Notes under the pieces: generated by a model
Database searches by the model: none
Seen by the model: only the letters and a program-made list of their open reading frames with translations
Told to the model about the DNA's origin: nothing
Shown here: positions 25,866 to 42,645 of the stretch, in pieces
Layout of the letters: every line of letters begins with the position of its first letter
How positions within the stretch are numbered: the stretch's first letter is position 1
Origin: Gracilimonas sp.
GTDB lineage: Bacteria > Bacteroidota > Rhodothermia > Balneolales > Balneolaceae
Reading direction: 5' to 3'
Length of the DNA: 64,000 nucleotides
Assembly: GCF_017641085.1 (NCBI RefSeq)
Contig: NZ_JAEPPI010000001.1
Span: forward strand, 682,001 to 746,000
Position numbers and translations under genes: made by a program

Positions 25866-26123
25866 TTATGCCTGTAGGTCGATGTGTCCGCCGATGGTTT
25901 CGTCTTTAGTTTTCGGTTTTTGGGGCTCTTTTTTATGAGTTTGTACTTTGAACTCAGACAGGTCCTGGGAATGAATGGCTACTTCGTCTTCCATAACAAA
26001 AGGAGGGCGTTCTTTATCCTTTCGGTCTTGCCGGCCTTTCTTCTGCTTTTCTTCGGCTTCCTGCTTGTGTTTCAGGAGCTCCGGCAGTTTTGTAAAGCGT
26101 GTTATTTTTGGTACGAGTGACAT
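25866..26123 (-). CDS. Small charged protein, possible flagellar-operon tail gene
   Basis: An 85-residue protein of unknown function, very rich in Lys, Glu, Asp and Gln, with no hydrophobic segment. It ends in GGHIDLQA. Small charged proteins with a similar ending are known to me near fliA in some other flagellated bacteria, but this is recollection and not proof. It points the same way as fliA and would be the next gene after it, were the GIY-YIG/repeat segment not in between. No good ribosome-binding site is visible. It may be real but non-essential, or a chance frame. Confidence 0.5.
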   Translation of the reverse strand: MSLVPKITRFTKLPELLKHKQEAEEKQKKGRQDRKDKERPPFVMEDEVAIHSQDLSEFKVQTHKKEPQKPKTKDETIGGHIDLQA

Positions 26124-26223: not shown

Positions 26224-26339
26224 GTCATCCTGAGCTAAAGAGGGAAGAATGGGGCCGGATGTTTATCGCGAAGGATCTGAGCCAGAAAAAGCTTGGTAAG
26301 TATTTCGTGGCTAAGGTTCATCGCTCCGCTCTGAATGAC
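26224..26339 (+). repeat. Dispersed ~116-bp repeat, copy 1
   Basis: It begins GTCATCCTGAGC and ends GCTCTGAATGAC; these ends are imperfect inverted repeats of each other (10 of 12). The inner conserved blocks are CGCGAAGGATCTGAGCCAG, AGCTTGGTAAG and GTGGCTAAGGTTCATCGCTC. The same blocks, in the same order and orientation, recur at 26694, 26845 and 42538. It ends 28 bp before the start of the GIY-YIG gene. Confidence 0.85.
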
Positions 26340-26367
26340 TTTTGGGGAGAATTTATTATAATCAACC

Positions 26368-26703
26368 ATGGGGCACTATACCTATATCGTTACTAACCCT
26401 AAGAAAACAACACTTTATACCGGGGTCACCTATGATGTTCGCAAACGAATCATTGAACATTATCTAAACAGAGGAGAGAGTAACACCTTTGCCGGTAAAT
26501 ACCACTGCTATTGTCTGATTTGGTATGAGGCATTTCCAACAATGAGAGAAGCTATTGAGGCAGAGAAAAGAATTAAGGGGAGGAGCAGAAAATGGAAGGA
26601 AGCTTTAATCAATGAGGAAAATCCGGGATGGAATTGCCTTAATAAAGTAGTGTTAGGAGAATGGCCTCCGAAACATACGCTACCAGATAGAAAGTCATCC
26701 TGA
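26368..26703 (+). CDS. GIY-YIG family endonuclease-like protein, embedded in repeats
   Basis: A 111-residue protein of the small stand-alone GIY-YIG group (UPF0213/YhbQ-like). The core is at about 4-80: YTYIVTN and TLYTGVTYDVRKRIIEH carry the Tyr and Arg catalytic positions, and EAIEAEKRIKGRSRKWKEALI carries the Glu and the basic helix. The molecular role of this group is not settled; nuclease folds of this size have been linked to DNA cleavage and repair. The gene lies between repeat copies 1 and 2, and its last codons and its TGA stop are supplied by copy 2, so the C-terminus was rewritten by the repeat. It is on the opposite strand to fliA and the small gene on either side. Confidence 0.85.
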   Translation: MGHYTYIVTNPKKTTLYTGVTYDVRKRIIEHYLNRGESNTFAGKYHCYCLIWYEAFPTMREAIEAEKRIKGRSRKWKEALINEENPGWNCLNKVVLGEWPPKHTLPDRKSS

Positions 26704-26810
26704 GCAAAAAAAAGTAAAATTAGGGCTGTGTGTTATCTGCGAAGGATCTGCTCCAGATCAAGCTTGGCAATCGTTTCATGGCTAAGGTTCATCGCTCCGC
26801 TCTGAATGAC
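26694..26810 (+). repeat. Dispersed ~116-bp repeat, copy 2
   Basis: Same family as copy 1 (GTCATCCTGAGC ... GCGAAGGATCTG ... GGCTAAGGTTCATCGCTC ... CTGAATGAC). Its first 10 bases encode the last residues and the stop codon of the GIY-YIG gene. Confidence 0.85.
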
Positions 26811-26844
26811 ATTTGGGAGGTTGTTGAAAAAAGTCCAACTAGGG

Positions 26845-26960
26845 GTCATCCTGAGCGCAAGTAAGTAGAATAGGGCTGGGTATTAACCGCGAAGGATCTG
26901 AGCCAGTGCAAGCTTGGTAAGCATTTCGTGGCTAAGGTTCATCGCTCCGCTCTGAATGAC
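26845..26960 (+). repeat. Dispersed ~116-bp repeat, copy 3
   Basis: Same family and orientation, 34 bp after copy 2 and 23 bp before the 3' end of fliA on the other strand. It could contribute a folded 3' end to the fliA transcript. Confidence 0.85.
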
Positions 26961-26983: not shown

Positions 26984-27754
26984 TCAACTGGCTGCGTACG
27001 CCATTTGCTCTTGTCCGAGGTCGCCCTTGAGTTGAATGAGCAACTTACCCACGATTTGAGAAATACGGGCTTCGGTAAGTTCCAGCAGCAAGGCGATTTC
27101 ACTCATTGTCATATCTTCATAATAATAGAGCATCAAAATCAGACGGTCTCTTTCCTTTAGCTGTCCGATTTTCTTCTGCAGAGCTTCGGTGCGCTCTTTC
27201 TTCTCCAAATTGGTATCCGGTGTTTCTGAATTTGGATCCTCATGGAAGTCATAGAAGGAACCGGAGTTTTCATCATAAGCAGGAGTATCTAATGAGAGTA
27301 CATTTCGCTGCTGTACATTGGAAAGAAGTTTGTAGTAATCATCCATTTCCATTTCCAGCTCATTGGCGATTTCTTCATCAGAAGGCTCGCGGCCAAGTAC
27401 CTGGCTCATTCGCTGGATAACTTCCTGCACCTGTCCGTAGTTTTTGCGCTGTTTTCTTGGCAGCTGATCGATACTTCTCAGGTAATCAACAATACTGCCA
27501 CGGATTCGGTAATAAGCGAAGGTGTTAAACTGAATATTTCGTTCGCAATCGTAAGAATCCAAAGCCTGGAGCAGCCCGATGATTCCTGCACTTTCCAGAT
27601 CTTCACGGTGTGCCAATGGCTGATCAGGTCGATTGATCTTGCCAATAATGCTGCGAATAAGTGGAGTGGATTTACTGATGATAGAATTTCGAATCCCGTC
27701 CACAGGGTTCTTGCAATAAATTTCAACCAGTTCTTGTAGTGACTTATTTCCCAT
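26984..27754 (-). CDS. fliA: RNA polymerase sigma factor FliA (sigma-28)
   Basis: A 256-residue sigma factor for late flagellar genes. Regions 2 (EDLESAGIIGLLQALDSYDCERNIQFNTFAYYRIRGSIVDYLRS), 3 (LPRKQRKNYGQVQEVIQRMSQVLGREPSDEEIANELEM) and 4 (LKERDRLILMLYYYEDMTMSEIALLLELTEARISQIVGKLLIQLK) are all present, as in FliA/WhiG proteins. It is the last gene of the flhBAFG operon. Motifs matching its consensus precede the Aer-like gene and motA. A candidate anti-sigma partner is at 61484-61840. Confidence 0.95.
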   Translation of the reverse strand: MGNKSLQELVEIYCKNPVDGIRNSIISKSTPLIRSIIGKINRPDQPLAHREDLESAGIIGLLQALDSYDCERNIQFNTFAYYRIRGSIVDYLRSIDQLPRKQRKNYGQVQEVIQRMSQVLGREPSDEEIANELEMEMDDYYKLLSNVQQRNVLSLDTPAYDENSGSFYDFHEDPNSETPDTNLEKKERTEALQKKIGQLKERDRLILMLYYYEDMTMSEIALLLELTEARISQIVGKLLIQLKGDLGQEQMAYAAS

Positions 27755-42537: not shown

Positions 42538-42645
42538 GTCATCCTGAGCGCAAGAATGCTGAAATAGGGCCGGGATAGTAATCGCGAAGGATCTTTGCCG
42601 CGAAATACTTGGTAAGTAGTTCTTCATTGCTCAGCTTTGAACGAC
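42538..42645 (+). repeat. Dispersed repeat, diverged copy 4
   Basis: A shorter, more diverged copy of the family at 26224-26960. It shares the GTCATCCTGAGC start, the inner ATCGCGAAGGATCT and CTTGGTAAGTA blocks, and the TTGAACGAC end. It lies 32 bp after the last flagellar gene of the flgF operon, at the border with the metal island. Confidence 0.75.

Follow-up and report, generated by a model that had tools for sequence, protein, structure and literature searches.

The window, by which we mean the whole 64,000-nucleotide stretch of Gracilimonas sp. DNA analysed here, carries between fliA and a small gene of the flagellar region a block consisting of a short GIY-YIG nuclease gene and three copies of a repeat (Table 1). 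An earlier note made from the sequence alone had described a trio of repeats in one orientation around a GIY-YIG gene, and reading of the sequence confirmed this arrangement: R1, R2 and R3 share one orientation (GTCATCCTGAGC...GCTCTGAATGAC), the GIY-YIG open reading frame starts 28 bp past the end of R1, and its TGA stop codon lies inside R2. The same note had placed the block on the strand opposite to that of both neighbouring genes and had reported a diverged fourth copy elsewhere in the window, and it was correct on both counts. The encoded protein matches PF01541 with an E-value of 1e-14.

Table 1. Features of the GIY-YIG block and its surroundings in the window
Feature	Positions	Strand	Remarks
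Small flagellar-region gene	25866..26123	-	One insertion border; adjacency to fliA conserved in relatives
Repeat copy R1	26224..26339	+	Two GTCAT hairpin units, heads outward (REPIN-like)
Solo GIY-YIG nuclease gene	26368..26703	+	111 aa; all superfamily catalytic positions present
Repeat copy R2	26694..26810	+	Contains the nuclease gene's stop codon
Repeat copy R3	26845..26960	+	Tandem to R2, period ~150 bp
fliA (flagellar sigma factor)	26984..27754	-	Other insertion border
Fourth repeat copy	~42538..42645	+	Diverged, solo, without nuclease gene

That the repeats are real beyond chance is borne out by their identity (70% over 117 nt between R1 and R2, 86% between R1 and R3) and by the rarity of the unit at their right end, which occurs six times in the 3.49 Mb genome at up to two mismatches, three of these occurrences being in the window block; the reversed pattern yielded no match in the same 3.49 Mb. 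In genome G003, the only two copies of this unit both flank the relative of the window gene. The description of the repeat ends as imperfect inverted repeats stands in a refined form, as each end constitutes a hairpin unit of its own with its GTCAT head pointing outward (GTCATCCTGAGC...GCGAAGGATCT at one end and GTCATTCAGAGCGGAGCGATGAACCTT at the other), so that every repeat is a head-out dimer of hairpins of the form GTC-AT-stem-loop-stem-AT-CT. In the window copies, A or G precedes the GTC and the tails read CT.

The genome to which the window belongs contains eleven PF01541 matches, and all nine of its small GIY-YIG genes are bracketed by direct repeats, each by a kind of its own, while UvrC and a 285-aa Cho-like gene lack bracketing direct repeats. 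At six of the nine the repeats are intergenic, most of them GTCAT-type and no two loci alike in sequence, and the remaining three genes lie directly behind tRNA-Leu, tRNA-Met and tRNA-Gly genes. These comparisons were based on family searches and on 20-kb stretches, eight of which were spread away from the GIY-YIG loci. Two loci of this genome contain runs of N, probably assembly gaps or withheld bases: at L016 they fall within a tandem duplication of GIY-YIG sequence, and at L015 they separate direct repeats that precede a GIY-YIG gene.

To place these findings in a wider frame, flanks were compared in 80 regions around GIY-YIG genes of relatives in the family together with the own-genome regions, giving 99 small GIY-YIG genes and, from the same regions, 325 small open reading frames as controls. 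Direct flank repeats were found at 54 of the 99 nuclease genes and at 21 of the 325 controls (p = 5e-24), and when inverted repeats were also admitted the figures became 64 and 21, respectively (p = 5e-32), so that repeats adjoin small GIY-YIG genes much more often than other small open reading frames of these regions. At loci L108, L107, L124 and L059 the GIY-YIG cassette occurs in tandem (repeat-gene-repeat-gene-repeat).

The protein tree of the small GIY-YIG genes separates a clade of 52 rows linked to GTCAT hairpins, several tRNA-linked clades, and a clade of 15 rows, likewise solo GIY-YIG genes, which is almost free of repeats (flanking repeats in 1/15). Hairpin density is 3.5 per kb beside the REP-type clade, 0.67 per kb beside the 15-row sister clade and 0 beside the tRNA-type genes, compared with 0.07 per kb in 160 kb of the own genome. 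In several members the gene stands between two single hairpins in inverted orientation (e.g. GTCATCCTGAACTTGTTTCAGGATCT), a layout resembling that of a RAYT gene between REPs. A leader dyad, TGTAAGGA-N-TCTTAC, was observed upstream of the start codon, often immediately before it (e.g. L125, L097 and L070), in 24 of the 52 hairpin-type genes as compared with 2/325 controls and 0/47 other GIY-YIG genes; the window gene does not carry this dyad.

Hairpin units were gathered by their GTCAT head and ATCT or ATCC tail, with no pairing required in between, and on this basis 56 of the 85 distinct units were found to pair at three or more further positions, representing twelve different stems. Random re-pairing of the 5′ and 3′ halves in 1000 trials gave a mean of 6.4 and a maximum of 15. 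Since pairing thus lies far above the re-pairing level and extends across twelve stems, it has been kept while the sequence changed.

The hairpin sequence also tracks the relatedness of the nucleases between genomes, each nuclease clade having a hairpin of its own. The evidence for this matching consists of label-free Mantel and paired tests, a hand-made assignment of families to the tree, drawn up with the tree in view, having been set aside. Similarity of the nucleases and similarity of the units were correlated between genomes (Mantel rho 0.29, p = 5e-4), and unit identity was 0.75 for the nearest nuclease in another genome as against 0.46 for the other nucleases of that genome, with 35 wins and 7 losses in the paired test (p = 1.7e-7). 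Of two earlier suggestions, that of a nuclease-repeat pair holds up, given the repeated flanks, the clade matching and the clade-dependent copy number described below, while clade-specific matching is difficult to reconcile with the idea that such genes attract the repeats.

The association is also seen in other phyla. When named genomes were searched with a five-row alignment, 80 loci from 23 named phyla were obtained; having been picked by similarity to the hairpin-type clade, they do not represent solo GIY-YIG genes at large. At 63 of these 80 loci a unit lies within 400 bp of the nuclease gene, and at 46 there are units on both sides; the other 17 have no GTCAT unit within 400 bp, some of them having repeats of other sequence. 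Unit density within 200 bp of the nuclease is 14.7 times that beyond 600 bp at the same 80 loci, the reversed-sequence control gave 14 units versus 217, and the heads point outward in 34 of 44 cases. In one Sinorhizobium pair the nuclease gene is under strong purifying selection (dN/dS 0.03). The full CGTC head is present at loci in Azospirillum, Rhizobium, Neisseria and Aeromonas, most of the proteobacterial loci that were read have a C before the GTC and a CC(A) tail, and in an N. gonorrhoeae record the nuclease gene sits within a dRS3-type cluster.

Small genes and dispersed repeats both gather in intergenic space, and their proximity could in principle be coincidental, the more so as the repeats are frequent and intergenic and some control open reading frames also have repeated flanks. 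The ten-fold excess over these controls, the clade-specific matching between genomes, the predominantly outward heads and the lack of such units beside tRNA-type nucleases of the same genomes nevertheless all argue against chance co-location, which is refuted by the control open reading frames and the reversed-sequence controls and to which we assign the smallest likelihood of all the explanations considered.

The dependence of the repeats on the nuclease was assessed by counting the F1 unit GTCATSCTGAACTTGWTTCAGSATCT at up to two mismatches in 57 genomes and seeking a nuclease of the cognate clade in the same genomes. With nuclease-positive status set by E-value, identity and tree, whereby the border between close clades is a matter of judgement, the median stands at 32 copies in the 18 positive genomes and at 0 in the 39 negative ones, and the relationship persists in a within-genus permutation (p = 3.5e-4); the reversed F1 pattern gave 0 copies. 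The prediction that genomes without the matching nuclease would mostly lack the matching repeat was thereby upheld, 28 of the 39 negatives standing at zero. Counting against the pairing, between 6 and 18 copies without a close cognate nuclease were encountered in G000, G002, G028, G044 and G052, although in G028 a diverged nuclease adjoins one F1 copy, and most repeat copies lie away from the nuclease genes. The copies are dispersed, intergenic, numerous and often dimeric, as is characteristic of CGTC-tagged REPs.

A conceivable source of mobility in trans would be the Y1/RAYT tyrosine transposases, the GIY-YIG genes then being mere passengers. Y1_Tnp genes are present in 39 of the 57 genomes and their number correlates weakly with F1 copies (rho 0.32), yet they are absent from G006, G042 and G056 despite 24, 42 and 13 F1 copies, respectively, while G054 has 17 Y1_Tnp genes and no F1 copy. 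Furthermore, the 2013 survey of CGTC-tagged REPs (Di Nocera, PMC3733652) encountered no CGTC repeats on either side of a tyrosine transposase gene. The hairpin-rich genomes devoid of Y1_Tnp largely refute RAYT as the mobiliser, and we consider this explanation very improbable.

Presence and absence of the cassettes between relatives demonstrate that they are mobile. A comparison with relatives for an empty junction of fliA and the small gene had been proposed, and the block is indeed missing there: the junction measures only ~90–130 bp in G046 and G051 and contains no nuclease gene in G057 and G040. In G022 it harbours other repeat units and no nuclease gene. In Azospirillum lipoferum 4B, plasmid AZO_p3 carries a dimer-gene-dimer cassette between sufB and sufC; the junction is intact and free of the cassette in A. 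oryzae, A. ramasamyi and strain B510 (~94% identical around the site) and in A. thermophilum. A search for a target-site duplication, as expected of a transposon or MITE with a DDE transposase, did not define one, since alignment of the empty fliA and Azospirillum junctions stops short of the ends of the insertion.

A sister branch of solo GIY-YIG genes is located just behind tRNA genes, with one clade per tRNA type (L129, L132 and L135 in the own genome; L049, L059, L062, L122, L124 and others elsewhere). A tRNA gene lies immediately upstream on the same strand in 19 of the 99 small GIY-YIG genes compared with 0/325 controls, and 13 of these 19 have direct flank repeats. The tRNA 3′ end recurs behind the gene, together with the terminator, at the three own-genome loci and in the tRNA-Met elements of the genus. 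Mapped onto the tree, tRNA type requires six changes, the fewest possible, as against a mean of 11.9 and a minimum of 8 after shuffling. At the tRNA-Met site an element is present in G000, G003, G032, G051 and G059, and the site is empty in G022, G040, G046 and G057. Neither a tyrosine nor a serine integrase was found in the three own-genome tRNA elements or in the occupied tRNA-Met elements, the GIY-YIG gene being the only gene inside. In tRNA-Met members the downstream copy is a pseudo-tRNA, altered alike in several species, and at L009, L012 and L019 the duplicated tRNA ends, as well as some repeats, are broken up by short palindromes of the CCTGCCTGCCGGC..GGCAGG type that look like insertions.

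Free-standing GIY-YIG homing endonucleases of the I-TevI and Seg type are well known, and they resemble the present genes in that a GIY-YIG gene moves with target sequence on both sides. Homing therefore supplies the main rival reading, in which such an enzyme would target pre-existing repeats or tRNA genes, a cut made in a repeat would be repaired from a repeat-gene-repeat donor with copying of the gene, and the repeats would spread by other means. A gene between direct repeats is the expected product of homing into a repeat, the tRNA branch retains an intact tRNA plus a duplicated tRNA end, and presence and absence between relatives occur in both branches. Homing, however, predicts that repeats should be common in genomes without a cognate nuclease, which is at odds with the 28 nuclease-negative genomes that have none; single inverted hairpins around a gene resemble the ends of an element more than a split target, and the insertion site is free of repeats in the three Azospirillum relatives of ~94% identity. 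The nucleases described here differ from the I-TevI and Seg type in having no DNA-binding domain beyond the core and in being associated with dispersed hairpins or tRNA genes, not with one allelic site. On balance, homing appears unlikely, though it is the explanation to be taken most seriously after the preferred one.

The active-site positions of the GIY-YIG superfamily are invariant in the alignments. The predicted structure is a bare GIY-YIG core (pLDDT 92.5) in which no additional DNA-binding domain was recognised, and specificity would thus have to reside in the core, as in a structure-specific nuclease. The closest solved structure is that of UPF0213 (1zg2, E-value 1e-4), followed at weak E-values by 1ywl and Slx1-Slx4; NCBIfam offered no family for six of these proteins, and one query of a phage collection was without match. 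In fold and size the proteins are like the UPF0213/YhbQ-like solo GIY-YIG proteins (1zg2, 1ywl) and the prokaryotic Slx1-like group of a 2006 survey (PMC1564403), from which they differ in that the portions of that survey consulted mention no link to repeats; the survey does describe prokaryotic GIY-YIG domains that stand alone, among them one that had recently become inserted in an HsdR gene. As Slx1, which follows UPF0213 among the solved folds, is a branched-DNA nuclease, one might envisage a host-tamed enzyme that resolves or trims repeat hairpins or cruciforms, its proximity to the repeats serving co-inheritance. Gain and loss of cassettes between close relatives and their tandem multiplication are not the pattern of a housekeeping gene, and this role seems improbable to us.

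The repeats share with CGTC-tagged REPs, a class defined by its head, first stem pairs and tail (PMC3733652), the GTC head, A-T as the first two stem pairs and a short CT/CC(A) tail, as well as occurrence in dimers, intergenic position and high copy number. That survey equated Neisseria dRS3 and Rickettsia RPE-4 and RPE-6 with CGTC-tagged REPs, reported CGTC repeats in A. lipoferum and N. gonorrhoeae taxa, where in our records the same class adjoins a nuclease gene, and found the class to be apparently without a dedicated transposase, whereas here a solo GIY-YIG gene is linked to it. The Balneolaceae units depart from the class as published in often having a base other than C before the GTC, a CT tail and longer dimers. 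The proposed parallel with REP sequences and their RAYT transposases has accordingly proved close. As in REPtrons (RAYT/TnpA_REP with GTAG-tagged REPs and REPINs; PMC3116915, PMC8266576), a small gene lies between its cognate hairpins, the pairing follows clades, hairpin dimers without the gene are dispersed, and the enzyme gene has few copies; the present system differs from REPtrons in its GIY-YIG domain (PF01541 only) in place of an HUH tyrosine transposase (Y1_Tnp) and in its GTC-AT rather than GTAG head. REPtrons are a working parallel and not the family that contains this system. A search of the open-access literature, which leaves aside all preprints and the bulk of subscription papers, brought up no publication that connects GIY-YIG genes with these repeats.

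Taking these lines of evidence together, we favour, with a probability of roughly 0.6, the reading that the block is a GIY-YIG analogue of the RAYT/REP system whose nuclease spreads the hairpins. The block is on this reading a small mobile cassette, a solo GIY-YIG gene bracketed by hairpin repeats that its nuclease would recognise. The repeats are of the CGTC-tagged REP class, with an unpaired GTC head, A-T pairs at the start of the stem and a CT/CC tail, and occur singly or as head-out dimers. The nuclease may bind the folded hairpin, either in single strands at replication or as a cruciform, and cut at its foot, whereupon the hairpin dimer, with or without the gene, would be copied to new sites. 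The result would be a REPtron-like system in which a GIY-YIG nuclease replaces the HUH tyrosine transposase, and a sister branch has adopted tRNA genes as its anchor. GIY-YIG nucleases are known to hydrolyse DNA and are not known to join strands, and integration would consequently need host repair.

We regard the GIY-YIG nuclease as a strong candidate for the enzyme, hitherto missing, by which CGTC-tagged REPs are spread. We rate at about even odds the broader proposition that solo GIY-YIG proteins mobilise these REPs, including dRS3 and the RPEs, in most phyla as a second and unrelated RAYT/REP-like invention, with the tRNA sister branch constituting mobile elements of ~380 bp. CGTC-tagged REPs are distributed over many phyla and the 2013 survey left their mover open; with an enzyme now named, open to testing and provided with clade-specific hairpin partners, the matter can be addressed directly. 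If the proposition is correct, a large group of small GIY-YIG genes annotated by domain alone would acquire a function, the REP/RAYT strategy would have arisen also with an unrelated nuclease fold, and the tRNA branch would represent an unusually small kind of integrating element. At L240, on plasmid p1 of Planktothrix agardhii, a GIY-YIG gene and hairpins are situated between a gene for an MmeI-type restriction enzyme and drmA, which belongs to a DISARM defence system.
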